Virus record (IMG/VR): IMGVR_UViG_3300031552_000001
Coordinates: 62,001 to 126,000 of that record
DNA length: 64,000 nt
DNA from: a virus
Direction: 5' to 3' (one strand)
Below are positions 7,124 to 31,835 of this stretch, in pieces. The notes under the pieces were generated by a model, which did not search any database, was not told where the DNA came from, and saw nothing but the letters and a program-made list of their open reading frames with translations. A program made the translations under genes and the position numbers. Positions within the stretch are counted from its first letter, which is position 1, and the number at the start of each line of letters is the position of its first letter.

Positions 7124-10100
7124 CTAATTCGTGGGAAGATTAGGGGATGACGTAATGTCAAGATCGTCCATGGTATCCTCATAGTCTTCCTCGCTCACCA
7201 ACCCATGCTCCCTCTGTATCTCTTTAGTGGGAAGAATAACGTCCGCTCGAGGTCTTATGTAAAAAGAGGCTAGAAAACCAAATACCATCGCGTGGAATGA
7301 GTCGTCGGTCCTCCCAGCAGCGCACTTGTAAATATTCATCCTAAGCCTATCATTGTACTCCGAAAATATGTTCAACATATCTATAGCAAAAGGCTCTTCG
7401 AATTCTTCCCACCGAGGAAACCAAAATACATTAGCCCTTTTTATTGCGTTAAAAACGTCTGACATCACCTCAGTGCGGTGGCATAAATGTCTCGGCACCC
7501 CCAGCTGGGCATCAAACTTTACCTTCTTCTTAACATTACCGACCCATTGGTATTTCTTCACCTTATCAGCTCCGAAATATCTAACAAGCTCGTCATTTGG
7601 CCAAAAACCCCCTCCGTAGTCTACTCCAATTTTTTGAACGTTAAATTCTCTAACTAGGTGTCGTATCTTCTTTATTTGCACTGCGGGCTCTGATTCTACA
7701 CCTTCAAATCTATGCCAATAGAACCAAGTGAATCTCTCAGGAGCAAACGGCAAATATCCTCCTAGGCAAACTACCGTGTAACTATTCTCGCCCGACCCCC
7801 AGTCAATTCCCATGAATATCGGATACTGACTGCTGTACTGCTTCACGTCTTTATAAAACTGCATGGACAACTCGTCCCAGCAGTTTCTTCTAACATCTCT
7901 TCGAGTAAGAGGTCTGGTGCCGGAATCATAACTTCTTCCAAGAACCTCATTGTAGAACTTAGCTCTGCTGTACACTCTCTGCTTGTTGAGTATGTCGTTC
8001 CAATCCATCCACGGAACCATAAGCTGAGGTATTCTAAATCCCTCAAATGGATTCTCAGTATTAGGATTGGGGTTAATTGCGCTCCAGCAGGCGTCGGGAT
8101 CGTCAGGTCGTATAAGCTTTCTACACCGGCTACAGATAAGACCGTCCGGGCCTATATTTTCCTCATCCAAAACATTCCAATGCCAGGAGCTTCTATTTTT
8201 TGGGGTTCCGTGTCTTTTACAAGGTACCACCCATTCGTTCTGCGTAGAGAACCTAGACCAGTAATACTCTATGGAGTTGTCTAAGGATTTAGGAGTTCCG
8301 GCGTAAATAAAATATTTGAATGATGAGTGAGACGCGCACTCCTCAATAACCGGCACGTTGTCGAGCAGAATGTCTTGGAATTCATCGATAACAACCAAGT
8401 CTGAAGGAATTCCACGAGTGTTATGCACTACTAGACCGTCTGCTACAAAGCAGCCAGATTCTTCCACGGTTAAATCATATACGTCATCCACTCCTTCTTC
8501 AAACACGCCCTTGACTCGGACCCACGACCGGGACGGGTCGCATAATCCTTTCAGATAAGAATCGTTCAGTTTATAAGCTATAGATAACAGTACTCTACGA
8601 CCAATACTGTCTTTGACGTTGCCTGGTCTAAGTTGAATTCTATATCTCGTCCAAGCAGAATGAGTGCTTAGGCCGTAATGCTCTTTTAAGTACCTCCTTA
8701 ACAACGCGTAAGATACAGGAATTCTGTCTTTGTCGTCTTTGCTTCTAGTAGTCTTAACCTCACATTTTCTAAAATGCCCAATAAGGTGTAAGAGCCTCTC
8801 TGTGGGGTACTTAGTCAAAGACAACGTGTAGCTTACTTTAGCCTTTTTTGTAGACGGCCTCTTGCGATAAATAGCGCTTCGAATGCCAAAATTCCATAGC
8901 ATCCTAGCCAAGCCCTCTATCAATTCCTTGGATGCACTAGAGTATCCAGCTCTAGCCCCTCCGTCGTCAGGGCTACACCAGCCATCCCCCCAAAATAATG
9001 CCCGTAAAAAAGCGATCTTCTCCGACTTAGGGGCAGACCATATGGCACGCGGTATCTTCTTATACTCCGCTTTTTTACCGAATTCCCCTAAGCTCCATAA
9101 AAGAGCCTTAGCTCCGTTAATGCCCTGTCCTCGACGGTCGGAGTACAGCCCTACATTCCAGCACGTTTTAAACCCCGGTCTAGAGTCCTCTACTCGAGAA
9201 CCTACAGACAGCCCCACCCTACGCGCTTTTACTTCAAACTCCCTCAAGTATTTCTTGTCAGAATTTGTAAACCTAACAGAGGACGGCTTGTTACACTCGC
9301 CTTCTGCTAACATGGCCCCTATGAGCCAAGCCATGTCCTCACCAACACTCAAAAAGGCGCACTCCTTGCCTGAATGGTGCGGGGCAGCTACAAAATCGCT
9401 TTTGAGGAGGTCTTCTGCATTTACCCAGCCTCGTTGCGTAAGAATAGGGTGGTCAAAGCTGCACATTAGTGGAACAGGATAGTCAGTCTCTACTCTGACT
9501 ATCCTTTTTCTTGCGCTTAAATGGGGGTTTGTAGCTGTAGCAATATAAGGCTTACCTTCTGTTGTCGAGGTAACGACCCGAACAGCCTTTCCTGCTTCTG
9601 CTAACTCCTTAATAGAGGCCAATGACCCGTCTGCTAAGTGTATTAGGCTGCTGCCATGCAAGCATCGGTCCGCGTTCAAAAATGCAAATCGAAGAGTTAT
9701 TTGTGAGTGGTTAATGAACCTCTTCTCAAACACATTTTTGAGGAGTCGATTATTGGTAGTTTGCTTCAAGAAAGGGGAAAGCTCTATAGGCTCAGCAATT
9801 CGGTCCCTACTGAACACTTTAGTTTGTTGGTTAGAGGGACTGACATAGAGCGCTCGAAAATAAGGGTTCATAAGCAAGTATGAAAGAGACACATTTCCCA
9901 GTAGCGTGCTGTTGTGCGCTACCAGCCCCTCAACGACAAAATTATGAGTATCACCTACCTCAAAGTCTACGCACTTGCAAATTCCTACTGGGGTGATCTC
10001 GACAACCCTGTCCCAATAAAGATCGGTGTCGGTGTGCGCAGCTAAAACATCCACCAACCCTTGATCGCATAATGAATCAGACCTAAAAAAACGAACATAC

Positions 10101-11479
10101 TCCAATAACTTGTTTCGAGTGGGCGGGTACTTTAATGTGCGGCGAAGCCCATCTTTATGCAAACTCTTGCGCCTATTTTCATGCCAGTTATCTTCCCCTC
10201 TAGAAGCTAAAATCTGTGCAATTAGTTTATTGATTTCTTTCGGGTACGTATCGCGATTATTACTAGAAGAGCCCGTAGGGGGTTTTACCTTCTCAGATTT
10301 TCCTAACGCCCCTATATCTTTCAGTAGGCGTGTGGCGCCCTTCTGAGTCTCTACGCGCAGTATATAAGCGAATTTTCTTTCCCCTCTTTTCTTATAAATA
10401 GACGGCCAGTTTTCTCGTATTTTGGAAGGTATACCGAACTTCCAAAGCAGGGACTGCACCTGTCTAACAAGAAGCTTGGACATAGAGCAGTATTCTAAGC
10501 TATACTTAGACCGGCTGTTTTTCTTAATGTGGCCGTCAGTAGACCAAAGACGATTTAAAAACAGTGATGTTTGCCGCATACTAAGGTCAAACACCCAAGG
10601 CGGGATAAATTTAGTGTAAGAGCTACAATCCAGAAGCCCGTCCTCTCTCATCCATCTATAAATCTCCCCAACATGAATTTTAACTATCTTGGAACTTCGA
10701 GTTGCGTAGTCATAAATTTTACTAGAACCCCCTACATTTTTAACGTCTGAAATAAATTCTGAAAGCCTCTCTCCCGGAGTTTGCGTAAAGCACACTCCGT
10801 CTGTAAGTCCGCCGTCTCCAATCAAATAGGCAGTTAGCCTTACCCTACTTTCGGGCATTGTAACTGAACCCGTAAAGTCCCCCCCTTGCCGCACAGCAGC
10901 TATTCTGTCTCCTACTCTTAATTGAGATCCCTCCGTCCAGCCGTCCCAGGTTCTCATAGGGTGGGTTAATGCTATCTCTAAGGTACGCCCTTGCCGAGTT
11001 TTTACTCTTACACAAGGCTTTGATACCCGTTTAGACACCCAACTAACGGTACCTGAAGACAGGTGTGCCCCGTCTAGCGACATTGTTACAAGAGAGTCTC
11101 CGATCTTCACGTCCCCTGCGGCAATCAACTCCCCGTTTGCTCGGCTACACAAGCTGGAGATAGGTACGCACTTCTCGACTTGCCTTCCAGCCATCAATAT
11201 TTTGCGCTTAGAAGACGAGTTGTATATAGCTCTAAGATACTCCCTGCCTTTAAAACTGAAGTTAACTAACCTACCCCCTGAAGGGATCTTAAACGCCCCC
11301 TCCACGAAAGCAGAGGGGACGGCCGTCAACGCCCCTTCTCTCGTAAAAGAACCTATATCTATCTCCTCGTTTGCTCTTTTCTCCTTAGCCGATAAAGGAT
11401 CGTACCTATAGTCTTCCTCAGTATCGTAGAGGGAACTCGGACGGACATCAGGATTATCGGATAAGGCTACACGCAGCAT
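7124..11479 (-). CDS. terL: Terminase large subunit (DNA-packaging ATPase/nuclease) precursor with two inteins
   Basis: The precursor is 1,451 residues; removing two inteins (420 and 415 residues) leaves 616, the usual TerL length. The protein pumps DNA into proheads and cuts concatemers. The Walker A motif GRQVEK/STLLGN is split by intein 1 right after the Lys. Intein 2 lies just before TRGIPSDLVVIDEFQD, which carries Walker B (VVIDE). The C-terminal RNase H-like nuclease shows three acidic motifs: GIDWGSG, GVDYGGG and TDDSFHAMVFGF. I chose the ATG at 11479, which has TTGGAGG eight bases upstream; an ATG at 11548 would run into the divergent gene. The small subunit is not recognised here. 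Confidence 0.93.
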   Translation of the reverse strand: MLRVALSDNPDVRPSSLYDTEEDYRYDPLSAKEKRANEEIDIGSFTREGALTAVPSAFVEGAFKIPSGGRLVNFSFKGREYLRAIYNSSSKRKILMAGRQVEKCVPISSLCSRANGELIAAGDVKIGDSLVTMSLDGAHLSSGTVSWVSKRVSKPCVRVKTRQGRTLEIALTHPMRTWDGWTEGSQLRVGDRIAAVRQGGDFTGSVTMPESRVRLTAYLIGDGGLTDGVCFTQTPGERLSEFISDVKNVGGSSKIYDYATRSSKIVKIHVGEIYRWMREDGLLDCSSYTKFIPPWVFDLSMRQTSLFLNRLWSTDGHIKKNSRSKYSLEYCSMSKLLVRQVQSLLWKFGIPSKIRENWPSIYKKRGERKFAYILRVETQKGATRLLKDIGALGKSEKVKPPTGSSSNNRDTYPKEINKLIAQILASRGEDNWHENRRKSLHKDGLRRTLKYPPTRNKLLEYVRFFRSDSLCDQGLVDVLAAHTDTDLYWDRVVEITPVGICKCVDFEVGDTHNFVVEGLVAHNSTLLGNVSLSYLLMNPYFRALYVSPSNQQTKVFSRDRIAEPIELSPFLKQTTNNRLLKNVFEKRFINHSQITLRFAFLNADRCLHGSSLIHLADGSLASIKELAEAGKAVRVVTSTTEGKPYIATATNPHLSARKRIVRVETDYPVPLMCSFDHPILTQRGWVNAEDLLKSDFVAAPHHSGKECAFLSVGEDMAWLIGAMLAEGECNKPSSVRFTNSDKKYLREFEVKARRVGLSVGSRVEDSRPGFKTCWNVGLYSDRRGQGINGAKALLWSLGEFGKKAEYKKIPRAIWSAPKSEKIAFLRALFWGDGWCSPDDGGARAGYSSASKELIEGLARMLWNFGIRSAIYRKRPSTKKAKVSYTLSLTKYPTERLLHLIGHFRKCEVKTTRSKDDKDRIPVSYALLRRYLKEHYGLSTHSAWTRYRIQLRPGNVKDSIGRRVLLSIAYKLNDSYLKGLCDPSRSWVRVKGVFEEGVDDVYDLTVEESGCFVADGLVVHNTRGIPSDLVVIDEFQDILLDNVPVIEECASHSSFKYFIYAGTPKSLDNSIEYYWSRFSTQNEWVVPCKRHGTPKNRSSWHWNVLDEENIGPDGLICSRCRKLIRPDDPDACWSAINPNPNTENPFEGFRIPQLMVPWMDWNDILNKQRVYSRAKFYNEVLGRSYDSGTRPLTRRDVRRNCWDELSMQFYKDVKQYSSQYPIFMGIDWGSGENSYTVVCLGGYLPFAPERFTWFYWHRFEGVESEPAVQIKKIRHLVREFNVQKIGVDYGGGFWPNDELVRYFGADKVKKYQWVGNVKKKVKFDAQLGVPRHLCHRTEVMSDVFNAIKRANVFWFPRWEEFEEPFAIDMLNIFSEYNDRLRMNIYKCAAGRTDDSFHAMVFGFLASFYIRPRADVILPTKEIQREHGLVSEEDYEDTMDDLDITSSPNLPTN
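8420..9664 (-). other. Intein 2 of TerL, upstream of Walker B, with LAGLIDADG endonuclease
   Basis: A 415-residue insertion starting CLHGSSLIHLADGS and ending GLVVHN before extein Thr. Block B is CSFDHPILT; the endonuclease motifs are AWLIGAMLAEGEC and AFLRALFWGDGWC. Exteins rejoin as FLNADR/TRGIPSDLVVIDE, immediately before Walker B. Intein 1 uses Ser+1 and this one Thr+1, and the two share little sequence, which suggests separate acquisitions rather than duplication. Confidence 0.92.
9911..11170 (-). other. Intein 1 of TerL, in Walker A, with LAGLIDADG endonuclease
   Basis: A 420-residue in-frame insertion beginning with Cys (CVPISSLCSR) and ending VAHN before extein Ser. Splicing block B is seen as LEIALTHPMRT and block F as HNFVVEGLVAHN. 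A LAGLIDADG-type homing endonuclease lies in the middle, with paired motifs LTAYLIGDGGL and LFLNRLWSTDGHI. The insertion splits the P-loop between the catalytic Lys and the following Ser, so the terminase cannot bind ATP until splicing is complete. Boundaries come from the Cys1 and Asn/Ser+1 rule and from continuity of the flanking terminase sequence. Confidence 0.92.
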
Positions 11480-11527
11480 TAAATAGTCCTCCAAGAAAAA
11501 AGAAGACCTCTCTGGTATAAGAGGGCC
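11480..11527. promoter_or_regulatory. Divergent intergenic region between terL and the RNase HII island
   Basis: Only 48 bases separate the terminase ATG (minus) from the plus-strand ATG at 11528. The plus side holds GGTATAAG (11514-11521) seven bases before the ATG. If this is a -10-like element, the mRNA would be nearly leaderless. A related GGTATAAG precedes the replication cluster (34742-34749). No good -35 is seen. The promoter call is speculative; the divergent arrangement itself is certain. Confidence 0.35.
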
Positions 11528-11893
11528 ATGACAACCTCCAAGAAACACCTAGCTAAAACCAGACTGCAATGGGTAGAGCATGCTCGACTAGGCATTCTCA
11601 GTGCTGTAGGGGAAGATGTCGTAAAACCCCAGTTTAGAGTATTCTCTACTGTAGATCCTCTTCGATTCATATTGAGCATTAACCTTACACTACCACTAGC
11701 AAAGAACACCAGGAAACCTCTGAGAGACTATATACGCGCATGGGCAGAAGAATTCGGCTGTGAAGTGCCTGTTATAGACATTCAAAACTCTAGAGTTCAA
11801 GCAGAGGTACTAACTAAAGAAAGAGTATGGAGTAGAGATGCAAAAGGTAAATTCACTAAGGGGGCAAGAAGGTTTGAACGCAGGCCTCGATGA
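11528..11893 (+). CDS. Small basic hypothetical protein
   Basis: A 121-residue protein rich in Arg and Lys (MTTSKKHLAKTRLQWVEHAR ... RRFERRPR). It is the first gene of a three-gene plus-strand island between two blocks of leftward genes. Its 3' end overlaps the RNase HII gene in another frame by 56 bases. The SD is weak (AGAGG very close to the ATG). I do not recognise a domain; the basic tail could bind nucleic acid. Confidence 0.6.
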   Translation: MTTSKKHLAKTRLQWVEHARLGILSAVGEDVVKPQFRVFSTVDPLRFILSINLTLPLAKNTRKPLRDYIRAWAEEFGCEVPVIDIQNSRVQAEVLTKERVWSRDAKGKFTKGARRFERRPR

Positions 11894-13199: not shown

Positions 13200-14756
13200 T
13201 TAACTCGTAGACATTGCCATATAGCGCAACTCATCCAAAAATGAGCAAGCCAGTTTTTGAAAGTATAGAGGCCCACAAAAATTCTTCCAAGCTGTTTTCT
13301 CTATCTCACCTTTTTCAAGATGCCATCCACTAAATCTTGGTTGAAAAAGAGCACCCCTGTCCTCAGTTCCGAAACGCTTTGTCGCCCTCACTTTTGCTAC
13401 TCTCCCAATATATTTGTTCTGGTTTTTCAGCATATCCTTGCCCATAGCGTGAGGAAAGCCCCCTACTTGTCCTACAATAGGCCCGTCTTCTGTCCAAGAG
13501 TAGCTTACAGAGCCGGCTCTATCGTGAGGCTCTCCCGTTTTTCCACTTACGGCAGGGTGTATTTTCCTTACATAGACATCAAAATCCGGAATGATTTTTG
13601 CTTTTGTTGGGGCGCTAGAAGACTGCTGTTCCACAAGGACTACGCCCTCTCTTGTAAGGGGGTACTTGCCTGTTATTATGCTTTTAAGAAGGGAGGATTT
13701 ATCTTTGGGTGTTAATGCCATTTTCGGCATCCAAAGGTCTTTAATTTTTTCTTCTACCTCTTTAAGGATCTTTAACTTCTCCACAAAAGGTGCGTCCACT
13801 ACAGATTTACCCTTATGTCTTACAACGTCGAAAGGGAACGCATGTAAGGTCGCATCCAGCTCTTTTTGTTTATCTCTACTTTCCCATACCTTCGTATTGA
13901 GAAGGCCCCCTATCACCTCTGACGGCAATGCCTTCCCTTTAGAGTCTAACGCTATAGTTTCTCCTCGAAGTATAGTTTTATCCAATTCCTTAGGAACTTT
14001 GTCCTTCAGCAGCTCTGTCAGTTTATGCGTGTGTTCAATAAGGCCGGTCGGGGTCAGCTTTCCTACTCTATAGGAGAATACTCTTGGAGCGCGCCCGGCC
14101 TTCAAGTCTATTATAGAATGAGCCCCATCAAGCTTAGGCATCATAATCTGGTCAGTTCTATTTGGGTCTACTTTGTCAATGTCTACTTCTTTATAACTGG
14201 CCTTACCAGAAGGTATATCCGGCCTACGTTCTCTAGTAACTGTCTTGTTGTGTATGAACCACCTTCCAGCGTCATCTCTGCGGATAGAAAATTCTTCAGG
14301 GTGCCTTTTGTCGTATAGGTTAAATCTAAGCTTAGTTCCAGGTGAGTCATCAGGCGCCGCATGATAAACGTCGGCTTTTGTTCGCCGGCCTTTCTCTACG
14401 ACCCCCTTTCCGTATTCGGTAGATATACGACCCAAAAAATCCATATACGGAATAGTATGGTCGTAGGTGGGCACCAATAAAGAAGACTGGCCGGGCTTTG
14501 GGAGCTCTTTTCGTCTTGGTAATACAAAAGAGTGAGCAACGCCGGTCTCGGGGTTGCCTAAGCGTAAGTCTACATGCGGGCCGGCTCTTTCTGCTAAATG
14601 GGGGTGAGCGGACATCTCCCAAACTTCTGGTTTTACCACCTTAGGCAGAGCAGTCACCTTTCGTTTAGGCACTCCAGGACCTAAACCACCGTCTTGATAG
14701 TAACGACTTTCCCTTTTCGTAACCCTCGCTGCTATCTTCTCCAGACGGCTAAGCAT
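13200..14756 (-). CDS. LigD-like 3'-phosphoesterase fused to ATP-dependent DNA ligase
   Basis: A 518-residue enzyme predicted to clean 3' ends and seal DNA nicks. Residues about 50-190 match the LigD phosphoesterase module: PHVDLRL (His, Asp, Arg ligands), YDHTIPY (His and Tyr), and EYGKGVVEKG. Residues about 205-390 are a nucleotidyltransferase: KLDGAHS (motif I, adenylated Lys), ILRGETIALD (III), REGVVLVEQ (IV), and AKIIPDFDVYVRKI (V). An OB domain follows, with a motif VI-like GALFQPRFSGWHLEK. It ends CSFLDELRYMAMSTS, resembling the terminal tag of neighbouring virion proteins. Its position in a structural operon, not in the replication cluster, is odd and raises the possibility of packaging in the particle. 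Confidence 0.85.
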   Translation of the reverse strand: MLSRLEKIAARVTKRESRYYQDGGLGPGVPKRKVTALPKVVKPEVWEMSAHPHLAERAGPHVDLRLGNPETGVAHSFVLPRRKELPKPGQSSLLVPTYDHTIPYMDFLGRISTEYGKGVVEKGRRTKADVYHAAPDDSPGTKLRFNLYDKRHPEEFSIRRDDAGRWFIHNKTVTRERRPDIPSGKASYKEVDIDKVDPNRTDQIMMPKLDGAHSIIDLKAGRAPRVFSYRVGKLTPTGLIEHTHKLTELLKDKVPKELDKTILRGETIALDSKGKALPSEVIGGLLNTKVWESRDKQKELDATLHAFPFDVVRHKGKSVVDAPFVEKLKILKEVEEKIKDLWMPKMALTPKDKSSLLKSIITGKYPLTREGVVLVEQQSSSAPTKAKIIPDFDVYVRKIHPAVSGKTGEPHDRAGSVSYSWTEDGPIVGQVGGFPHAMGKDMLKNQNKYIGRVAKVRATKRFGTEDRGALFQPRFSGWHLEKGEIEKTAWKNFCGPLYFQKLACSFLDELRYMAMSTS

Positions 14757-19450: not shown

Positions 19451-22400
19451 CTAATACGCCCAAGGGGTGTCAGAAGGCGGTTGACCGAATTCTTTTCCTA
19501 CAGCCATGCCGGGTATGGGGTGGGTACCGTGCAAAACAGACTTCCACCCTTTCGCTGCGGCATCCAGTATAGTGCTCTTCAAGCTCCTGCTTTGAAGTCT
19601 GGCAATCCAGTCAGTTTGTAGCTCCAACGGAAGCATGTTCACGCCCTGCAACACCGGCTTATACGTCACTTGTTTCTGCCCCGGCTTCAAGTTACGATTG
19701 AACGCCGCTATCTCCGAAGTAGCCGCATGATCTCCTCTAAGCAATGTGTCGTGATCTCCAGGGTCTACTACTTCGCTCAAATTAGTCATAGCCCTGACAA
19801 ACGTCTCCACATTACGTCTTCGAACAGGCCCCTCGTCTTTATATGCGTTCCAAATCTCGTCCGTTAGATACTGCTGCACAGTGTTTATATTAGTGCGCGC
19901 CAACATATCTCTTGGGTTTTTGGGGCCGTCAGAAAGAGCGTCCCCCGCCTTAACTTCTTGCCCCTTCTTTACGGATATTGACCTAGTTGCAGGCACATAG
20001 TGAGGCACGGCAGACTCTAAACTAGACGCCTTATTCGGAGACACCATGACTCTCCAGCCGCCTGCCGGGTCTTTCTCTATTTTCGACACTGACCCTTCTG
20101 TATCTGCTAAAGTAGCCGCCCCGGGAAGTTTTTTAGGCACGTTAAGCAACTGCTCCAGTCGATTAAATAGACTTGTAGCGCTAGTGCCTTTAGCTCCTAC
20201 AATTCCGCCGGTATGAAAAGAATTATGCGTGCGTATTTTATTAGCGCTAAACGCCCTACTTGCAGTAGACAAATCGTAAGTCCAACCGCTGTACTTTACT
20301 TCCCTTACAGACACCACTTTCGAATAATAAAGATCGGGATAAAGCTCTGGTCCCGCATATCTGCATAAAAAAGACCAAGCTTTTTTAAAAAGAGAAGTCA
20401 CTTTCTCAAAAACCCCAGGACTTTTAGAAGAAGACCACTCTCGAGTAATGCCTACGTATCTTCCATTGATTGCCCTTGTGTGAAAAGCAGCCTCTTGTTG
20501 TTCTTTATAAGCCTCTTTCGAAATCAGTGTGGTCCTTAAACACCCTGCGCAACTTACGAGCACCAAATCATACTTAGTGCTATTTCTATAGCCCCTAACA
20601 TCACGCACGGGTTCTGCGCATCCACAAAAACCACACTTGCCGGAGCCTGTTCTCGCCAACGTTGCGTGGTTGCCTTGCGCTATCAAGTAACTTCCGCTCT
20701 CCGTCCTCATTTCGTACATCGTATCGCAAGGCTCGTGCCTCTGTATTGTGTACACCGCGGTATATTCATACCCATCCCATACTTTTAGCCGCTCTGTAAC
20801 TTTTGTTTCCATCCCTCTATCTACAGAAACGTCGCTGTATACTTGATCCCAAAGAGATTTCAGAGTCAGTATAGATACCGCCCCGTCTGTAGTTTTTATG
20901 CGCACCTCAGAGTCTTCGGCTAAGCAGTTCATGGCTAACTGCGTTGCGGGCTCACCCAATGCCTGCGCAGCTATTACTCCGACGTTAGAGCCGGGAGAAT
21001 GTAGCTTTCCTTCTTCATTCAGACCGTAGCATTTGCTACATAAGCCCTTACCGTGAGCGCATTTTAGTGGAGATCTAACTTCCAGCTTAGTAATTTTGTT
21101 GTTTCTCAGCCGGCTCAGGAGATCGGGGGTCACTAAAGTACCTGCGGGCACTTTTCCTTTATCTATACCGGCCTTTACTCCCAAATCGATATCCTTAACA
21201 GTAAATCTGTCAAGAACGTCGTTGTTGTCTACGGGCAGAACCACGCCCTTAGTGGTGCCGCAATCATCATCCACTATCAGTTGATTCATAGCGGTATTCA
21301 CAAGATGTTTAGACATCTTACCGGGAGCCTGGGTACCCTGAACTCGGCCTATTGTGCCCATTCGAGCTCCGTGCATAGAGGCAAAGTAAGAGCCGATATC
21401 CAGCCCCTCTGAATAGGATTTAGGGATAGGGATCGGGACAGGTTCTCCCCTAGAATCGGCAACCAGCATAGGCGCCACAGTCATTTGCTTAAACTGAGAC
21501 CAACTGCCTCTAGCACCAGACTTCACCCAGTCGTACATTCTATTCTTGCTACGGTCTGCTCGTTTCTTGGCCACGCCGTGAATTTTATCTGCGGCAGAGG
21601 CATAAAGCTTTACGATCTCTTCCTTTCGTCTGATTGGACCATATGTCTTGGACCGTATTTTAGCTTCCTTGCCGGCAGCGTCTTTCAATACCTCATCTCG
21701 ATATTCACGGTCTGATAAGAAGTCATCTAGCCCAATAGACATCCCAGTAGCGTATTCGTTTCCGATATCCTTTAGCCGGTCAGCAACTACCCCAAAATCC
21801 TTCGGAGACTTCTTTGCAACTTCCGTAAGCAAAGAGTTCAAAGTCTTCTTATCGAGCATGAAAGAAGTGTCATTTAGTATCCTAGAGTCTCGAAGGTCTG
21901 TAGGTAAGGAGTGGTACAGCATAACTCTACCTACCGTAGTCTTTACGGGCCCTGCTGCTTTTTTGAACAGGGCGCCAAAGGGGTCTCCGTCCAACTCGTT
22001 TAGCTTAATAGGATCGGTAAGCCGAATACGGCCCTCCTTTACCGCTCTCGCGGCATCCGCCACAGAAGAGAAACGAACAGGATCCCTATCCTCTACTTCC
22101 GTAAGCTTATAAAGCCCCATCATTGATTCTTGAGTAGGCTTAGACATAAGGTAGCCGGTAGTAGGGCTAAACAAATTAAAGGAAGGCAGCATCTTTATCG
22201 CTTCCTTCACAGCCTTCTGACTCACAGGTACGAAAGCGCTCATTTTGTCACCGTCGAAGTCAGCGTTGAAACCCGAAGTGACTAACGGGTGGACTTGAAC
22301 AGCCTTTCCTTCAATAAGCCTAGGTCTAAATGCTTGTACTCCAAACTTATGTAAAACAGGGTCTCTCTTAATAATGATAGGACGTTCATCTACCACAACC

Positions 22401-25400
22401 TGCAAGGCATCCGCTGCCGCGGGATGGTTTTTCTTTACCATGTCTTGTGCATCCAGAGGCTTGTGCCCTAACTGCACTAAACGACGTATTACAAAAGGCT
22501 TATATAGCTCCGCCGCTGCTTTTCTTGGTAACCCTACTTCATCTAAACTAAGAGAAGGCTCAGGGGTGATAACTCCCCGCATAGACAGGTCTTGTCGCCT
22601 TCCTATGATTTTATCTTGGAAAAAACCCTCCTTAGGCTGCCCACCTTTCTCGCCAGACCCGGAGATAGTTTGCATTATAGCGTTTCTATGCTTGCCTTGA
22701 TGAACCCCTCCCGTAAGCATTACAGCTTTTAACCCGTCGTATAGAGCAGACTGAAGCTCTACTTTTTCTTCTGGGGGAAGTGCAGAATCGAACCCTTTCA
22801 GCTTCGAATTTACATGTCCTATGTGATTGTAAAGGCGGTTCACGTCATCGTACCGAATCACGCCATTATCCATAACTATGATAGGTCTGAAAACCGGAGG
22901 CAGCACCGGCAGATGCTTCATTGTGTACGCTTCAGAAGGGGACAAACCGGCCCTATCCAGGGCTCTTAGGTATTTAAGTTTTTTGTTGGCATCATTAAGC
23001 TTCGAAGCTCTAAGAGTAGGTAAACGATCTTCTATGTCTTTCTTCATCTTTTTTAGGTCTAGTGCTTTAACAGCGGCTACTATCGCTTGAGGGCCTGTCA
23101 TACCGTTTAGGCGCTCCCCTCCTGTAACTATGCGATTAAAGCTATTTTGGTTTAGACCAAGCAGAGAAGATATGGGCCCCTCAAATACAGGATTCGGCAT
23201 TCTTTCCGGAAGAGGAACATGCGACCATTTCGTACCGCGTACGCCGCCCGTAACTTTTGGATCAAATATACCTCCCACTTCCTCACGAGCATCCTTAGCC
23301 CACAACGCTCTACCCGCGTCAGCTAAGGCCCCATTGCTCATTTCTAAGACTTTTTTGTCGGTAAGGGGCTGTAGTATTAGGTTGTTACCCTCTTTGCTGA
23401 TATCTAGCCCCATTCCCTTGAGGTATCCTTCGAACTTTTTGAACACGAACGGCACTTTTGGGGTAGGCACTGAATCGCCTGCCTGTAGCTGAGTCCAAAA
23501 CTCATCGTTGAAATCCGACTTCAAGGTCTGCATTTCTCTGATGTTTTCTCTAGCGTTATGGGCCAGTAGGGCATACAGCCCCATTGCGTCCATAGTCTGT
23601 CCGCCTTTAGGTCCCCCACCGGAAGGAAGTAGGTTAGAGTCATACGCATCTCTAGATCGTACAGACAGCCCCTTATCGGCCGTATGGTGAAGCTTCAAAA
23701 TATATTGTGGGCCAGTAAGTACGTCAGGGAATTTTCTTCCCGTCTCGGGGTCATAGAGGTCCTCGGTGTCGCTCACGCCGTTCTTTTTCAGCTCATCTCT
23801 AAGATGGCGAGTGTAGTCTGTAATTTTCGGATCAAAATTATTGACGACGTAAGGCTTACCTTTTTTCTCAGCAAGCTTTGCAGCAGCAGTCTCCAACACT
23901 TGCCCCAAATTTATCCGGGTCGGGACCCCAGTCTGGTTTAGAAGCACCTCTACCGGCTTGCCTTCTTTTGTCTTAGGCATCTCGCTGTCTGGAATTACTC
24001 GAGTAACCACTCCCTTATTTCCATGACGACCAACTATCTTATCTCCCACGTCTGCGGGAACCTCGGCCCTAACATAGACGGTAGTGTTTTTTCCGTGTTT
24101 TGCTACCCTAGTGACTGTCCCGGGAACATCTTTGGTCCATCTAATCTCTCTAGGCTTCCACGGTCTAATAAGGCCTTTCGAAAATAGACCTAATTTCTGT
24201 TCGTCAGGAGTTACGTTTTCCTCCTTCAACACTCCAAATAGGATATCGTCTTTGTTTACAGTTTGTCCCTCTCTTATAATGGCGTCCTCATCCAGCTTAT
24301 CTGATTGCTCTTTCGTAACCTTACCGGCCATATAAGACATGAATTTCTTTTTATCTAACTGGATACTTTTTTCGGCCGTAACTTTTTCTCTAAATAAATG
24401 TTCGCTGTTTCCGCACCATCTAGGCTTCCCGTTCCTACGAACGTAAACGACTCCAGAGGGCACTGACACGCACCACACTTTAATAGGCTCTTTAAGTTTT
24501 GTAAGCTTGAGTTTAGAAAAATCAGAGGCATTAAGGTGAGGCGAGTGTTCCTCTCCAAGTATTGATACTCGGTAGGAATCTACCGTAGCGGTTACTACTT
24601 CTCCAGTAGACTTTGTAGAGGAATAGCCTGCTTTGCAGTGAATGGACCAATTAGCAGAGTACCCGCAGTGTAACGCTAACCGCTGCACATCGTCTCGTAG
24701 TCGAACACTAGAGGTAAAATATGACCCCTTCTTTTGCATAGAAAGTCCGCCGTCCCCTAAAAGCAGACCTTCCAAAAGTATGCGCGACTGCCTTTGGCTC
24801 AAAGACCAAACCCATTCTGGTAGGTACTTATCTACGGCTTTACCAAACTGACTAAGATAAGACGCCGCTTGCTTGCTAGACCAAAGCCAACGATCGCAGC
24901 TAGCCAAAGTCCCAAACCCTAACCGGGACGAAAGCTCTTTCAGAACTTTTTTTACTCTAGGCTTAAACTGCCGTATCGAGACCTTCGGGGACTTTTCGTT
25001 GCCCCCTCCTTTATAATCGCAGTGACCCTCTGCAATATACAACCCGAACAACAGGCACCAGTCGTCCATGTTTATAGAAAGTGGAGAGATTTCACGAGAA
25101 TTATATTCAGGACCATGGGGGTTACATTTTCTTATCGACGGCAACCTAAAGACATCTTGATCTGGGCCCGCATTCTCTGCTGTGCGAAGTAGTCTAACTC
25201 TTTTATTTAATAAAAGACTAGCTTCTACTTTTTCGAACACCTTCTTCTTAGACGGACTGACGTACAGTTTATGAGTAGGCGTAACGCAAATATCAAATTG
25301 ACGAGAGGAAGCCATCGCCATTGTGTCTGACAATCCATCATGAAACTCTATTATGCTTTGGTAAGACAGTTTTCCATCTTGAAGAGAAGCCACAAGGTCG

Positions 25401-27421
25401 GATTTTCTCAACTGATCCCTTGTTAACCACCCTCTGTTACTAAGAATCTCTGTACGGGCATCAAAACAGGTAAGTTTTTTAGCGGCCGTCTCAGACACCA
25501 CCACCCCGTCTTCGAAGTTCAACCCCTTCCACGGCATATAAGCCACTCTAAGATTCGTGCCCAGCGCCAGGGTGCCGTTCTTAGTAAAATTGATGTCAGC
25601 AACCACCTGCCCAGATGATACGTTGTCACCTACTTTAACCAAGGGGGTGCTGCTAAGAACACTTTTGTCGTCATTTAGAGGATAGTCATCGTACAGTTGA
25701 ACTTCTTTTTTCGACCCGTCTTTTGCCTTAACGATTATTGCATCTTTTTTAATCGACTCTACAACTCCATTAATGGGCGAGACGTGGCTTACAAAAGCAC
25801 CTAAACCCTGCTCAAAAGTGCGAGAGGGGCTATCACTTCTTGTCTGCACAAGAGGCTCCTCTCTGTCCTTTAGAGACACCGCCTGCTCTAATTGCCGAGA
25901 GGCGACCATAGTTCTATTGCCTTGGTTGTTTTGCAAAAACGGAATGATGTTTGCGGACAAGTCGAACATGCCTTTACTTGAAGCCAGTACGTAGTCTACG
26001 TCCTTTGGCTTCAGTACAGTCACCGTACCCTCCGAATCGGACACCTTCACAGAGTCCTTAACCGGCACGGGCTTACCCGCCTTCCATTCATATTGATCGG
26101 GGAATGCTAAATTAGACTTGAGAGCCTGATAGGGGTTTATGAACTCCCTTTTTCCAGTCTTCACGTTGAACACCGGAATTTTTAAGTCCTGGCCGTCCTT
26201 CACCACATGGGAAGCAAGCTGAAGTGTGACGCCGATGCGATCCGATTCTGGCGTATGGATTGGGTCCAAGAACCCTAAATGACTGGGGTTAATGGACTGA
26301 GCTTCTAGAGAAACCTCGTGGGTGGATTTGATCCCTCCCTCACCTGGAGCAAAAAGAGTAGTTCTACGATTACCTGAAATAAAACTTATAGGGTTGGTTT
26401 GAGTCGGTCTTTCAGACAGCACGGAACTTACAAAGAACTTGCGCAGGGGCTTACCAAAAACGTCGGGGTTGATAATGTCCCTAACTCGATCGTGCTTGTC
26501 TAACGTATTCCCTATCTTTCTTTTTACCCCTTTTTCTACCTGCCATTTCTCTAAACGCTCATTTATAAGGTCTTCCGCTGAGTAAAGATCCTTGAAGGAC
26601 AAGGAGTCTCTATCATCAGGCTCAACTTTTTGTTGAGACACCTGTAAGATTTTTTTGGAGCCCGCCAATAAAGACGCACCGTTGACTTTATCGTAGGGCT
26701 TCCCCAGTGTTAATTGGGTTGAGTCCGGGCGAAGCACCGTCTTATCAAACTCGCCTATAACTAACTTCTTAGCTTCTTCTACCGTTTCTGGATTAGAGCC
26801 TCTAACCGCTCTATAGAACTTTCTGAGAGCGTTCTCAGCATTTGTGCTCTTGTTAGCGCTCAGAATATCCTTTCCCCATGTTCTTTCTATGGAGTCGTCA
26901 TCTACCCCCATCGTCTTCAGAATAGGGTAAAGAGGTATTTGGGCCTCTCCATAGCGAAGGGTCATTTTTTGAGTTTTCGGACTGAAATCCATATCAAACG
27001 CCTTGCCCTTGGCTAGATTCCACTGAGAGGTGAGTTCTCCATTTCTTCGAATTCTGGTATAAACCCCCGACTTCATTCGAAATAGGTTATTTACCTGCCA
27101 CTCACTGCCATTGACGATATAGCTATAACGGCGAGTTATTTTTGGTAATTGAGCGACATTGACCACCTGTTTATCAACCACCTTACCTGTACTTTTATCC
27201 TTAAGCTCGAGTTCCGCGCGTATCGGAACAGTCCAGCTTCTGCCTTTTATTCTTGCGTCCTTTTGCTCTCGTATGTCGTCTATGTCCTTGTCGTCATCTA
27301 CCCACACCTTCTTTGCTACAAGAGTGTGCTGTTTTCCCTCGATAGGGAAATAATTCTGGATAGTACGAGCCGTTCTTTTTTTGAGACTCTCGAAAGCCTC
27401 TTCAGGAGAATAGTGCGCCAT
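19451..27421 (-). CDS. DNA-directed RNA polymerase, beta and beta' fused in one chain, with two inteins
   Basis: The 2,656-residue precursor becomes 2,067 residues after splicing. The beta part shows HLGFLDPIHTPESDRIGVTL, MPWKGLNFEDGVVVSE, VGDKIVGRHGNKGVVTRV and GVPTRINLGQVLETAA. The beta' part follows on the same chain with LPVLPPVFRPIIVMDNG, GRRQDLSMRGVI, the catalytic NADFDGDKM (three Mg-binding Asp), KCAHGKGLCSKCYG (C-terminal zinc site), AAQALGEPATQLAMN, and trigger-loop SFHTGG. The beta' N-terminal zinc ribbon appears deleted. Total size is about 680 residues below E. coli beta plus beta'. No alpha, omega or sigma gene is seen. The gene heads a leftward operon ending in the spike, so it may be a virion or late polymerase. 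Confidence 0.95.
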   Translation of the reverse strand: MAHYSPEEAFESLKKRTARTIQNYFPIEGKQHTLVAKKVWVDDDKDIDDIREQKDARIKGRSWTVPIRAELELKDKSTGKVVDKQVVNVAQLPKITRRYSYIVNGSEWQVNNLFRMKSGVYTRIRRNGELTSQWNLAKGKAFDMDFSPKTQKMTLRYGEAQIPLYPILKTMGVDDDSIERTWGKDILSANKSTNAENALRKFYRAVRGSNPETVEEAKKLVIGEFDKTVLRPDSTQLTLGKPYDKVNGASLLAGSKKILQVSQQKVEPDDRDSLSFKDLYSAEDLINERLEKWQVEKGVKRKIGNTLDKHDRVRDIINPDVFGKPLRKFFVSSVLSERPTQTNPISFISGNRRTTLFAPGEGGIKSTHEVSLEAQSINPSHLGFLDPIHTPESDRIGVTLQLASHVVKDGQDLKIPVFNVKTGKREFINPYQALKSNLAFPDQYEWKAGKPVPVKDSVKVSDSEGTVTVLKPKDVDYVLASSKGMFDLSANIIPFLQNNQGNRTMVASRQLEQAVSLKDREEPLVQTRSDSPSRTFEQGLGAFVSHVSPINGVVESIKKDAIIVKAKDGSKKEVQLYDDYPLNDDKSVLSSTPLVKVGDNVSSGQVVADINFTKNGTLALGTNLRVAYMPWKGLNFEDGVVVSETAAKKLTCFDARTEILSNRGWLTRDQLRKSDLVASLQDGKLSYQSIIEFHDGLSDTMAMASSRQFDICVTPTHKLYVSPSKKKVFEKVEASLLLNKRVRLLRTAENAGPDQDVFRLPSIRKCNPHGPEYNSREISPLSINMDDWCLLFGLYIAEGHCDYKGGGNEKSPKVSIRQFKPRVKKVLKELSSRLGFGTLASCDRWLWSSKQAASYLSQFGKAVDKYLPEWVWSLSQRQSRILLEGLLLGDGGLSMQKKGSYFTSSVRLRDDVQRLALHCGYSANWSIHCKAGYSSTKSTGEVVTATVDSYRVSILGEEHSPHLNASDFSKLKLTKLKEPIKVWCVSVPSGVVYVRRNGKPRWCGNSEHLFREKVTAEKSIQLDKKKFMSYMAGKVTKEQSDKLDEDAIIREGQTVNKDDILFGVLKEENVTPDEQKLGLFSKGLIRPWKPREIRWTKDVPGTVTRVAKHGKNTTVYVRAEVPADVGDKIVGRHGNKGVVTRVIPDSEMPKTKEGKPVEVLLNQTGVPTRINLGQVLETAAAKLAEKKGKPYVVNNFDPKITDYTRHLRDELKKNGVSDTEDLYDPETGRKFPDVLTGPQYILKLHHTADKGLSVRSRDAYDSNLLPSGGGPKGGQTMDAMGLYALLAHNARENIREMQTLKSDFNDEFWTQLQAGDSVPTPKVPFVFKKFEGYLKGMGLDISKEGNNLILQPLTDKKVLEMSNGALADAGRALWAKDAREEVGGIFDPKVTGGVRGTKWSHVPLPERMPNPVFEGPISSLLGLNQNSFNRIVTGGERLNGMTGPQAIVAAVKALDLKKMKKDIEDRLPTLRASKLNDANKKLKYLRALDRAGLSPSEAYTMKHLPVLPPVFRPIIVMDNGVIRYDDVNRLYNHIGHVNSKLKGFDSALPPEEKVELQSALYDGLKAVMLTGGVHQGKHRNAIMQTISGSGEKGGQPKEGFFQDKIIGRRQDLSMRGVITPEPSLSLDEVGLPRKAAAELYKPFVIRRLVQLGHKPLDAQDMVKKNHPAAADALQVVVDERPIIIKRDPVLHKFGVQAFRPRLIEGKAVQVHPLVTSGFNADFDGDKMSAFVPVSQKAVKEAIKMLPSFNLFSPTTGYLMSKPTQESMMGLYKLTEVEDRDPVRFSSVADAARAVKEGRIRLTDPIKLNELDGDPFGALFKKAAGPVKTTVGRVMLYHSLPTDLRDSRILNDTSFMLDKKTLNSLLTEVAKKSPKDFGVVADRLKDIGNEYATGMSIGLDDFLSDREYRDEVLKDAAGKEAKIRSKTYGPIRRKEEIVKLYASAADKIHGVAKKRADRSKNRMYDWVKSGARGSWSQFKQMTVAPMLVADSRGEPVPIPIPKSYSEGLDIGSYFASMHGARMGTIGRVQGTQAPGKMSKHLVNTAMNQLIVDDDCGTTKGVVLPVDNNDVLDRFTVKDIDLGVKAGIDKGKVPAGTLVTPDLLSRLRNNKITKLEVRSPLKCAHGKGLCSKCYGLNEEGKLHSPGSNVGVIAAQALGEPATQLAMNCLAEDSEVRIKTTDGAVSILTLKSLWDQVYSDVSVDRGMETKVTERLKVWDGYEYTAVYTIQRHEPCDTMYEMRTESGSYLIAQGNHATLARTGSGKCGFCGCAEPVRDVRGYRNSTKYDLVLVSCAGCLRTTLISKEAYKEQQEAAFHTRAINGRYVGITREWSSSKSPGVFEKVTSLFKKAWSFLCRYAGPELYPDLYYSKVVSVREVKYSGWTYDLSTASRAFSANKIRTHNSFHTGGIVGAKGTSATSLFNRLEQLLNVPKKLPGAATLADTEGSVSKIEKDPAGGWRVMVSPNKASSLESAVPHYVPATRSISVKKGQEVKAGDALSDGPKNPRDMLARTNINTVQQYLTDEIWNAYKDEGPVRRRNVETFVRAMTNLSEVVDPGDHDTLLRGDHAATSEIAAFNRNLKPGQKQVTYKPVLQGVNMLPLELQTDWIARLQSRSLKSTILDAAAKGWKSVLHGTHPIPGMAVGKEFGQPPSDTPWAY
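20222..20926 (-). other. Intein in beta' trigger loop, no LAGLIDADG, zinc-ribbon insert
   Basis: A 235-residue insertion beginning CLAEDSEVRIKTTDG and ending KIRTHN before extein Ser. Block B is LIAQGNHATLAR; block F is SGWTYDLSTASRAFSANKIR. No LAGLIDADG motif is visible. The middle instead holds KCGFCGC and SCAGC, a probable four-Cys zinc ribbon of unknown role, perhaps a relic of an HNH-type nuclease. Exteins rejoin as TQLAMN/SFHTGG, so the insertion lies next to the catalytic trigger-loop His. Confidence 0.88.
24407..25468 (-). other. Intein in RNA polymerase beta region, with LAGLIDADG endonuclease
   Basis: A 354-residue insertion beginning CFDARTEILSNRGWL and ending NGKPRWCGN before extein Ser. 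Block B is CVTPTHKLYVSP. Endonuclease motifs are WCLLFGLYIAEGHC and ILLEGLLLGDGGL. The penultimate residue is Gly, not the usual His, a variant seen in other inteins ending ..RNGKP..GN. The site follows FEDGVVVSETAAKKLT, next to the active-site FED motif of beta. Confidence 0.92.
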
Positions 27422-28962: not shown

Positions 28963-29826
28963 CTACAAGGAAACAGTGGGCGTAGGTTTAGGCCCTAATG
29001 GAGCTGTAGGGACTCCACCTTCAATCAGAGGCATTCTAACAGGAGCGGGTGCTGCTCTGCGGGGGAGAGTTAAAGGGGCCCTAGCGGGAGCGGATTTAAT
29101 CTGAGATAAGGCTCGGCCCTTAGAACCGCCTCCTATAAGCCGATAAAGCTGTTCCTTATTTAGCCCTTGTTCAGACCTTCCTATCGCTTTTTTCATATAG
29201 GGAGTAAATTTACGCAGTCCCGATTCGGTTAAGTTAAGTACGTTACCGGCCATACCCCCCATACCCTCAGCCTCCCCTTTATGCATAGGAAGAACATCAA
29301 TAGCTTTTTCGCCTCGGATATTGGCCTTCCTAATGTCCTCTAATTGATAGCCCTTCGAAGCTCCAGCTCTTTGGAGCTCTTCTTTGATTGTAGCTTCTGC
29401 TCTACGTCCAGGCTCTCCTCCCGGTACGTATTCATGAAAAGTAGCCCGACCGCCTCTGCCTGTTCTTGCGAAGCCGTAAGTCTTAGCCAGCCTCGGAGAA
29501 TCTACGACCTTAGACATTTGTAGCTTGCGCCCTACCATCATAGGAGAAGCTATAGCGGAAGTGGGGTCATAGAGCTTACGAACCGCTACCCCATGCTCCG
29601 GGTGAGCTACCAAATCGGCTATTCCTTCGCTACCGCCTCCGAGGTGCTTGATGTGAGACCCCATAGCTGAGGGTTTCAACACTCCAGGGGTCTTTGCTAG
29701 TCGGCTAGCCTGCTCAAGCGCCCCACTGGTTCCTTTAGAGAACAGGTTCTTAATAAGACGGAAACCGGCTCTGGCTGAGATCTTCTCAAGCTCGTCTTTA
29801 AAAGCAAGTAAAGAAGTAGAATTCAT
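28963..29826 (-). CDS. Tagged virion-type protein with weak protein-kinase-like features
   Basis: A 287-residue protein starting MNSTSLLAFKDELEKISARA, an N-terminal copy of the F-x-D-E-L-x-K motif. Residues about 60-190 show a kinase-like order: a Gly-rich loop (LGGGSEGIA), GVAVRKLYD (possible VAIK-type Lys), hinge-like FHEYVPG, LEDIRKANIRG and KAIDVLP in the places of the catalytic D..N and DFG. The match is weak and could be coincidental or a degenerate kinase. The C-terminus is Pro/Ala-rich. The ATG overlaps the portal stop (ATGA), so it is coupled to the portal gene. Confidence 0.6.
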   Translation of the reverse strand: MNSTSLLAFKDELEKISARAGFRLIKNLFSKGTSGALEQASRLAKTPGVLKPSAMGSHIKHLGGGSEGIADLVAHPEHGVAVRKLYDPTSAIASPMMVGRKLQMSKVVDSPRLAKTYGFARTGRGGRATFHEYVPGGEPGRRAEATIKEELQRAGASKGYQLEDIRKANIRGEKAIDVLPMHKGEAEGMGGMAGNVLNLTESGLRKFTPYMKKAIGRSEQGLNKEQLYRLIGGGSKGRALSQIKSAPARAPLTLPRRAAPAPVRMPLIEGGVPTAPLGPKPTPTVSL

Positions 29827-31835
29827 GCCGCTGCAGCCTCGGGCCCTCTCATGGGAGGTTTCTGCTCAGGCATAGGCTGAGCCGCAGAGTTCACATTAGC
29901 CCCTCTAGACTGCTGCATAAGCTGCAATATCAACGAATAGAGTTGAGGATTACTGCTTCTCATCTGCATAAGGTGCTGCTGCTTCTCCTGCTCGGGTAGC
30001 TGATTCAGCCAACTCACTACCTTATTCGCTATATCAAGAACCCCAAGTTGGGAAGGTTGATTAGACACCAATTGAGATTCACCAGAAGCAGTAGGGGATT
30101 CCTCCTGACTCATCTCCATAGGAGGCACCTGACCCGCTTGATTCATCATCCCGGTTTGAGCGTTTATGGCAGCACCTTGCGCTATAGGGCTAGACATGCC
30201 AGGCTGACCTGCGGCCGCCATACCCCCCTCTTGCATCGCTCTTTGGTCTTTTGGATCCATAGGGGCTACTTGTTGCTCCATCAAAATTTTCTGCGCTCTA
30301 GTTTGATACTTGATTTGAACCAGTTGGGCCTCACCTTGAATGCCTGCCTGAGCCAAAGCTTGAGACCTTTGATTTTCGAGCACTCTCTTTTGCTCTACGG
30401 ATATTAGCTCAGATTCTTTGACTGCATCCCAGTCCATGTCCTCAAGTAAAGACTTGTCAGACAACTTACCCGCTTGATTCATTTGCAAAAATAGGGCGCT
30501 ACGCTGCAAATCATCCGCCATTTTGAACCGTTTGTAATGTACAGGTACGGTCTCCCACCCCATATACGCGCCTATATTTGGCAGGATAAAATCAGTAACC
30601 AACTGTTTATGTTGTGTCCTTTGATCTAAAAAATGATTCTCCAAAATTCTCAGAGATACGTTTGAACCGCTATAGCTCATTCCACCGAAGACGAACTCTA
30701 TCGGGACTCCCATGCCTGCAATAATATGCTCTGCCCATACGCGATATTCTTGTGCCAACATTAAGGCTCTTCCATCGCCGCCTAAAGTCTGTTGGCCTAC
30801 TGGAATAGGAAGTAGTGGGATGTAGTTGTTATCTAACCTCCATCGAATAATCTCCTGCTCTATTTTGTCTCGCCATTGTGTAAGATTAACAGACGAATAT
30901 ACAGAAGCATCTGGAGAGGAGGTCTGTGGAAACAGCAAGCGTAATGGGACGATATGTTCTACTGCAATGGCTTCTTGGGCCTTACGCAATATTTGGAGGT
31001 AGAAAGCGTCTTTGAGAACAGGAAGAACCATGGGCATCCCCCACCCCTTGTCCTTTTGGGCAATGGTAGGGCGCTTCATGTGGTAAATGTTATCCCGACT
31101 AAACAATAACGCTTTATTCTGACGAAGGGCCTCAATAAACACTTGAGGAGTGCGCTCTATGATATGCCGCTTAGCCATTCGGACATCATTCGCAAGCATA
31201 GGAGGGATAACGTAGTAGTATCTGCTCTCTCCCGTAGCCTCATTGTGCTGAATTGTGACGTACTCCGGGTTCCACCTAATTAAATGAATATCCCTTACTG
31301 ATCGAACGTAATGATCTCTGACCTGAAACTCTTGGTGGTGGTCGCATCTTTGACAGTTACCTACAAACTTGTAATCTCTAAAAGTGTACTTCTGTTTTTC
31401 TACCCTAGACCGATGCCCGCAACTCTTGCAAATGAGAAGCTTATGGAAAGGGAATGAAATAGATATGAACGCGTTACCGTAAGCTTGATAGTCAAGCCCT
31501 GCTTCCACTTCAAACTTCTTGAAGTTTAAAACTGACCCAAAACAATACTCCCATTGCTTACGAAGCGGCTCGTTTTCTGTATCAAAGACTAAGTCAGTTA
31601 TGGGGTATTCTGCCATTTTAGAACAGACGGCGTTGATAAGCGGGTTAGTTAAAAAGTAATACCTGCACCAACGCAACATCGTTTTAAACGACGACGGCAA
31701 ATACGTATGAGCTATATCAAAAAAAGGAGAAGGGTATCTAATGGCCCCCAGGGCTTCACTAGTTAACGACCGTCCAGTATTCCTAGAGAATCGCATACCG
31801 CCAGAAGGACCGAATGTTAGAGCATCTATGCTCAT
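29823..31835 (-). CDS. Portal protein with inserted zinc ribbon
   Basis: A 670-residue protein that would form the dodecameric DNA channel at the head vertex. Portal-like features include FLTNPLINAVCSKMAEYPIT near the N-terminus, YQAYGNAFISISF, the DIHLIRWNPEYVTI strand, GWGMPMVLPVLKDAFYLQIL, and the long C-terminal helix region. Residues about 135-172 contain CKSCGHR and GNCQRCDHH, a four-Cys zinc ribbon inserted in the wing domain. The last 150 residues are Gln/Met/Pro-rich and probably disordered. AAGG precedes the ATG. Confidence 0.8.
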   Translation of the reverse strand: MSIDALTFGPSGGMRFSRNTGRSLTSEALGAIRYPSPFFDIAHTYLPSSFKTMLRWCRYYFLTNPLINAVCSKMAEYPITDLVFDTENEPLRKQWEYCFGSVLNFKKFEVEAGLDYQAYGNAFISISFPFHKLLICKSCGHRSRVEKQKYTFRDYKFVGNCQRCDHHQEFQVRDHYVRSVRDIHLIRWNPEYVTIQHNEATGESRYYYVIPPMLANDVRMAKRHIIERTPQVFIEALRQNKALLFSRDNIYHMKRPTIAQKDKGWGMPMVLPVLKDAFYLQILRKAQEAIAVEHIVPLRLLFPQTSSPDASVYSSVNLTQWRDKIEQEIIRWRLDNNYIPLLPIPVGQQTLGGDGRALMLAQEYRVWAEHIIAGMGVPIEFVFGGMSYSGSNVSLRILENHFLDQRTQHKQLVTDFILPNIGAYMGWETVPVHYKRFKMADDLQRSALFLQMNQAGKLSDKSLLEDMDWDAVKESELISVEQKRVLENQRSQALAQAGIQGEAQLVQIKYQTRAQKILMEQQVAPMDPKDQRAMQEGGMAAAGQPGMSSPIAQGAAINAQTGMMNQAGQVPPMEMSQEESPTASGESQLVSNQPSQLGVLDIANKVVSWLNQLPEQEKQQHLMQMRSSNPQLYSLILQLMQQSRGANVNSAAQPMPEQKPPMRGPEAAAA

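Follow-up and report, generated by a model that had tools for sequence, protein, structure and literature searches.

A single open reading frame in the window (the whole 64,000-nucleotide stretch of phage DNA that was analysed, part of a record, G000, of 192,137 bp) encodes a bacterial-type RNA polymerase in which beta and beta' follow one another in one chain interrupted by two inteins (Table 1). This architecture is widespread in IMG/VR and is no lone oddity, and our trees place the family as sister to the phages that carry separate beta' and beta genes. On balance, we consider it probable that the gene product is an intein-spliced, virion-carried, sigma-directed single-chain polymerase. The parts of this reading differ in strength. 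Judged from its sequence, the protein is almost certainly a catalytic polymerase and very probably a single chain after splicing; carriage in the virion, argued by analogy with a relative, is likely, and direction by a phage-encoded sigma is likely to the same degree. Splicing, activity, packaging and injection in the window phage, as well as the pairing of core and sigma, are what we infer from the observations below.

Table 1. Features of the polymerase gene and its surroundings (window coordinates, except where the whole record G000 is named; residues are those of the unspliced precursor).
Feature	Position	Strand	Residues	Description
Gene directly downstream, 391 aa	18256..19431	-		Match to Arash gp238 (virion protein)
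Beta-beta' RNA polymerase precursor gene	19451..27421	-		2,656 aa including both inteins; 2,067 aa when spliced
Extein 3	19451..20221	-	2401-2656 + stop	Beta' C-terminal part
Intein 2	20222..20926	-	2166-2400	235 aa; C...HN/S ends; Cys-rich insert
Extein 2	20927..24406	-	1006-2165	Beta C-terminal part, joint, beta' to start of trigger-loop motif
NADFDGD	22247..22267	-	1719-1725	Beta' catalytic motif
Place of zinc-ribbon deletion	23225..23266	-	1386-1399	Beta' N-terminus
GDKIVGRHGNKG	24011..24046	-	1126-1137	Beta catalytic-barrel lysine motif; conserved in tree rows
Intein 1	24407..25468	-	652-1005	354 aa; C...N/S ends; LAGLIDADG-type endonuclease match
Extein 1	25469..27421	-	1-651	Beta N-terminal part; ends shortly past NFEDG motif
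287-aa gene between portal and polymerase	28963..29826	-		Place of Arash gp205, by position only
Portal protein gene, upstream	29823..31835	-		Match to Arash gp204, E=5e-213
Sigma-like protein, 264 aa	G000:144813-145601	-		Outside the window; Sigma70_r3 and phrog_351 matches

The polymerase frame opens with ATG and runs through its 2,656 codons without an internal stop. Pfam profiles match it in the order Rpb2_2, Rpb2_3 and Rpb2_6 (beta) and then Rpb1_1, Rpb1_2, Rpb1_3 and Rpb1_5 (beta'), with LAGLIDADG_3 and Intein_splicing domains also matched, and the catalytic motifs NADFDGD and GDK...GRHGNKG are both unbroken. A first-pass annotation, made from the nucleotide sequence, had described bacterial-type beta followed by beta' on one frame and a spliced length of 2,067 residues; the domain order and motifs bear out the former, and our intein boundaries give exactly the latter (for scale, RpoB and RpoC of Salmonella have 1,342 and 1,407 aa). 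A phmmer comparison with bacterial beta' in solved structures reached E=1.7e-119 at best, and the best 60 matches listed are RNA polymerase chains aligned to the beta' part. The equivalog models of the bacterial subunits were matched below their cut-offs, TIGR02013 (RpoB) at 350 bits against 801 and TIGR02386 (RpoC) at 531 against 963. Structure prediction of the spliced chain, which had been proposed earlier, was carried through for extein 2, so that the model covers residues 1006-2165 only (mean pLDDT 80.4, pTM 0.62); in a fold search, its top matches were bacterial beta' chains (E=5.1e-52). The two best matches among predicted viral proteins have 1,127 and 1,192 aa, equal to the beta' lengths of Rhizobium phage RHph_Y65 and Vibrio phage Va2, and are named here by length alone. 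Footprinting of the region upstream of the gene gave no clear promoter motif. The exteins share 79.6% amino acid identity with a homologue, L004, at a pS of 0.87 (synonymous sites saturated) and a pN of 0.13, which indicates strong purifying selection. A chance or frameshift artefact was ruled out by this selection, by the stop-free frame and by homologues that lack the inteins.

In those inteinless homologues, L004 (2,058 aa) and L006, neither insert is present exactly at the insertion sites of the window chain, and L004 continues uninterrupted across both, which fixes both intein boundaries exactly. Each insert begins with Cys, ends with Asn, is followed by Ser and matches intein domains, as expected of Hint/DOD inteins, with intein 1 terminating in GN instead of HN. 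In beta, intein 1 follows closely on the NFEDG motif. Intein 2 sits in GEPATQLAMN/SFHTGG (the slash marks the junction), a site that we take to be the trigger loop and that reads GEPGTQLTMRTFHIGG in the bacterial counterpart. Inserts of more than 80 aa occur in 19 of 83 family loci at about eight sites, most with intein-like ends, and one of these sites falls inside the NADFDGD motif. Intein-like inserts within NADFDGD and at several other sites were seen in L034, L036, L054, L062, L063 and L083, among others. The recurrence of inteins in the same enzyme, at several sites in catalytic motifs, suggests a testable idea, that polymerase activity could be controlled by splicing. Elsewhere in the window, the terminase large-subunit frame (7124-11548, minus strand, 1,474 aa) contains two further inteins, matched at residues 112-547 and 629-1051, and part of this frame resembles intein 1 of the polymerase.

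At the joint, beta reaches its normal end and beta' starts almost directly afterwards. The beta' N-terminal zinc ribbon, which the first-pass annotation had already reported missing at this place, was detected by a regular expression in 0 of 71 family members versus 70 of 71 bacterial rows, and alignments agree that it has been cleanly deleted from beta' of the family. Among loci with separate chains the same expression undercounts, detecting the ribbon in 21 of 47 although all five separate-chain alignment rows have it. Beta' of the window chain retains its second zinc site (detected in 43 of 71 family members), and the alignment shows that the clamp coiled-coil region is retained too. A further reduction concerns the flap tip of beta: among 12 bacteria, this segment spans 33 to 34 residues in ten and 133 and 145 in the remaining two, versus 21 residues in all six cut rows and in 21 of the 28 single-chain rows, the other seven of which have 22 to 29. 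Sigma region 2 docks on the clamp coiled coil and sigma region 4 on the flap tip.

The first-pass annotation had implied that such a fusion is rare, which the size of the family contradicts. A scan of IMG/VR returned 177 related stretches, and the best 80 of these 177 resolved into 79 distinct loci. Among 71 relatives recovered with both ends, a set that takes in the window sequence and three isolate records and in which near-copies are counted, 53 encode a single chain, and the other 18 share a cut at one conserved position within beta'. The cut type keeps the beta-beta' joint and includes Salmonella phage Arash and Vibrio phages D69 and D181. A second scan, started from a separate-chain phage, gave 47 loci with separate genes and 33 with a single chain among the best 80 of at least 500, two of the 33 being contigs already present in the first scan. 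The gene order in the separate-chain phages is beta' and then beta. We looked for a split intein or an intron that would join the pieces of the cut type and saw neither in L058, whose two pieces are separated by a DNA-ligase-like gene, nor in Arash, where nine annotated genes separate them. The RNA polymerase block of the window also has a gene (13200-14756, minus strand) for an ATP-dependent DNA ligase whose N-terminus resembles a LigD-type phosphoesterase, and the gene between the pieces in L058 looks similar. The first RNA polymerase gene of Vibrio phage D181 is interrupted by a group I intron (L304 1594-1874, plus strand; Rfam, 100.7 bits), after which a homing endonuclease gene follows. 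Apart from the family, a 36.9-kb contig carries an unrelated-looking single-chain beta-beta' of 2,196 aa (L299 2167-9497, plus strand); the protein encoded after it is alpha-like, matching RNA_pol_L and RNA_pol_A_bac. In the tree, L299 belongs to none of the main phage groups, and it may represent a fusion that arose independently and is accompanied by an alpha of its own.

The main tree of beta plus beta' comprised 62 rows and 1,735 columns (LG+C20+F+G4, short search) and carries SH-aLRT support only. Support was 100 for the bacteria, 99 for the separate-chain phages and 100 for the single-chain and cut phages taken together (L299 excluded), and the two phage groups were joined at 99. The trees were built without archaea, eukaryotes, Helicobacter and Wolbachia and contain long branches (Carin-5, L290 and L299). 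The comparison of phage polymerases with Helicobacter and Wolbachia fusions that had been called for earlier was therefore made only in part by phylogeny: phages stand apart from bacteria in the tree, and the two fused bacterial forms were compared through model scores. Within the family, L278, L281, L293 and L298 branch first (100), and the cut clade is nested within single-chain rows, which suggests that the single chain is likely the ancestral state and that the cut arose once. A first tree of 77 rows, ahead of which 11 rows judged redundant had been removed, recovered the single-chain rows as one clade (98) because those four basal members were absent from it. An approximately unbiased test rejected monophyly of all single-chain rows (p=9.5e-5, under LG+G4, with 21 of the 62 rows dropped and the group defined post hoc from the tree). 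Since separate-chain phages have beta' before beta, the fusion would not have arisen by simple joining of genes in that order, and the bacterial order of beta and then beta' would fit its origin better.

The polymerase gene lies among virion genes. Its order is that of Arash, with the portal gene, one other gene and then the polymerase. The first-pass annotation had placed it beside the spike gene, and this is borne out by the downstream neighbour, whose Arash counterpart gp238 adjoins gp239, annotated as the PAAR spike tip. Further window genes match Arash gp219-gp222. When 18 window genes were compared with the available Arash stretches, six matched and six did not, while for the other six the pool contained no family members. 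The same annotation had described the polymerase as being without alpha, omega or sigma. For the first two this stands in the whole record: the alpha dimerisation domain was matched in 0 of 16 family records, G000 included (the control being positive in 13 of 14 named genomes), and omega in 0 of 11, again including G000 (control positive in 14 of 14). For sigma it does not, as the 264-aa sigma-like gene lies outside the window. Its Arash match falls on gp10, and a search with this protein found matches in 15 of 16 family records, G000 included; the sixteenth, of 133 kb, has a Sigma70_r2 match of its own. No Sigma70_r2 match was found in G000. An 87-aa frame with a Sigma70_r4 match (L085 1465-1728, plus strand, corresponding to G000 around 162606-162701, outside the window) may be a minimal or truncated second sigma.

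We propose that the precursor would be translated whole and that both inteins would then be excised, leaving a single-chain core of 2,067 residues with both catalytic barrels. Alpha and omega serve to assemble beta and beta' in bacterial RNA polymerase, and the covalent joint could take over part of this work. With the coiled coil kept and the flap-tip segment lost, the small phage sigma would direct the core and guide it to phage promoters. Encoded in the virion-structure block, the polymerase would be packaged, injected with the DNA and start phage transcription. Several points count against this account. The evidence from Arash concerns a cut version that is about 31-32% identical, so that the argument for virion location spans a wide divergence; the missing flap tip puts in question how sigma region 4 is held; the sigma of the window phage has no Sigma70_r2 match; and only six of the 18 window genes compared match the available Arash stretches. 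A bolder version, which we regard as possible but doubtful, is a two-protein holoenzyme of the 2,067-residue chain and the small sigma that is carried in the virion, needs no host subunit to start phage transcription and is silenced before splicing by the intein in the trigger loop. We hold equally tentatively that such an enzyme would dispense with alpha, omega, zinc ribbon and flap tip altogether.

The proteome of the Arash virion bears on where the polymerase acts. According to the portions of that report available to us, Gp206 gave 3,516 spectra, the most of all proteins including the major capsid protein, Gp216 gave 1,210 and the sigma Gp10 gave 467, and the authors name early transcription or carry-over of lysate-abundant proteins as options (PMC10585845). 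On the latter option, the polymerase would be made during infection for middle or late phage genes and would merely stick to virion preparations, and this agrees with the presence of further non-structural enzymes, ribonucleotide reductase among them, on that list of virion proteins (PMC10585845). The rank of Gp206 above every other virion protein and the place of the gene between portal and spike-type genes both speak for packaging instead, and we judge a purely non-virion polymerase unlikely. The lack of an alpha or omega match in the genome and the bacterial-like coiled coil would also suit a hybrid enzyme, in which the single chain recruits alpha, omega or sigma from the host. Such a hybrid appears improbable to us, given that a phage sigma is encoded and widely retained and that the joint would lessen the need for alpha.

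Loss of the zinc ribbon and flap tip and the intein load across the family could alternatively mark a decayed or non-catalytic remnant, which might serve as a structural protein or act as a decoy of the host enzyme. Unbroken catalytic motifs, strong purifying selection and a full chain that is open in 53 of 71 relatives leave this reading very little room. Recent capture of a host's fused rpoBC gene, which the first-pass annotation had put forward as the finding that would undo its own view, would explain the bacterial order of beta and beta' and the recognisable bacterial motifs. Identity to bacterial loci is at most 32% among the best 80 of at least 595, however, and no two-gene locus among these 80 shows a fusion. 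The phage chains form a clade separate from bacteria (in the tree without Helicobacter and Wolbachia), and scores fall far below the cut-offs of the fused-family models: the window chain reaches 584 bits against a cut-off of 5,372 for NCBIfam NF007172 and 578 against 4,632 for NF011417. We therefore regard recent capture as close to negligible. Under the preferred reading, an intein-spliced, virion-carried and sigma-directed single chain, this phage clade appears to solve assembly by fusing beta and beta' and shedding zinc ribbon and flap tip while keeping sigma. If so, it would offer a minimal single-gene, sigma-directed core that is directly accessible to expression and testing, and would serve as a natural experiment on what the cellular enzyme can do without.

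Two fused beta/beta' models, NF007172 and NF011417, which we take to represent the Helicobacter and Wolbachia forms, resemble the window polymerase in that a single chain comprises beta followed by beta'. They differ in length, at about 2,890 and 2,839 positions, and the phage chain has neither the zinc ribbon nor an encoded alpha. Among phage enzymes, the virion and nonvirion RNA polymerases of phiKZ-like phages are likewise phage-encoded beta/beta' homologues with a virion version, but in the available parts of the sources they consist of four or five chains with no sigma found (PMC7598289 and PMC7824862), whereas the window polymerase is one chain. The polymerases of crAss-like phages (gp66), YonO and P23-45 combine both barrels in one chain, and some are virion enzymes (PMC10770324 and PMC7481178, as far as these were accessible). 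They are too divergent for cellular subunit profiles, as described in the accessible part of PMC7481178, whereas the window chain matches bacterial profiles strongly. None of these chains is named among the PDB fold-search matches listed, and they are otherwise set apart by their descriptions.

The closest published set besides the isolates is mReC, comprising 97 contigs with beta and beta' (Weinheimer and Aylward, PMC7481178). In the portion of that paper available, these tailed phages encode bacterial-like subunits that have NADxDGD and stand apart from cellular RNA polymerases, as in the window family; capsids were detected in 8 of the 97 contigs, all eight PF07068 (Gp23-like); and the words "fused," "fusion" and "single protein" are used for crAssphage only, with "intein" and "split" absent from that portion. 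Two separate subunits are not named there as a defining trait, and metagenome 3300017989 is given as the source of mReC1 and mReC3. We found two contigs from this metagenome, tied to mReC by the metagenome number alone; both have two chains with beta' before beta and a zinc ribbon, in contrast to the single ribbon-less chain of the window, and neither has a PF07068 match. This capsid profile was matched in 0 of 16 family records (G000 included) and 0 of 8 further ones, compared with 4 of 4 named separate-chain phages (one scoring under the curated threshold) and 4 of the 8 separate-chain records. Filing the window polymerase as mReC was dropped because this capsid signature is absent while the positive controls matched. 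The published mReC lineage is probably the separate-chain sister group, a tie made through the metagenome number, and single-chain members may be present among the 97.

Later work from the same group, in the part of the text at hand, assigns multi-subunit RNA polymerases to Chimalliviridae and Straboviridae (PMC11835377), and the single-chain form is not described in the corresponding parts of the jumbo-phage RNA polymerase reviews (PMC7598289, PMC7824862 and PMC13282480) or of the P23-45 paper (PMC10770324). As far as the open-licence literature was searched, the architecture of this single-chain, zinc-ribbon-less, intein-bearing clade is undescribed, and the catalytic family itself is known. 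The nearest known relatives are Gp206 and Gp216 of Arash and their counterparts in Vibrio phages D69, D148 and D181, which are homologous to the window chain from end to end at about 30-32% identity and belong to the same clade, with the same beta-beta' joint, the missing zinc ribbon, a portal gene upstream and a sigma homologue. Theirs are cut inside beta' (about 1,525 plus 606 aa), with other genes between the pieces, whereas the window polymerase is one frame. The pieces carry the annotations "beta" and "beta'," and the odd "beta" of Arash is explained as a fragment of a chain that probably used to be intact. Phages with bacterial-type RNA polymerases include, next to the separate-chain lineage, this second one.
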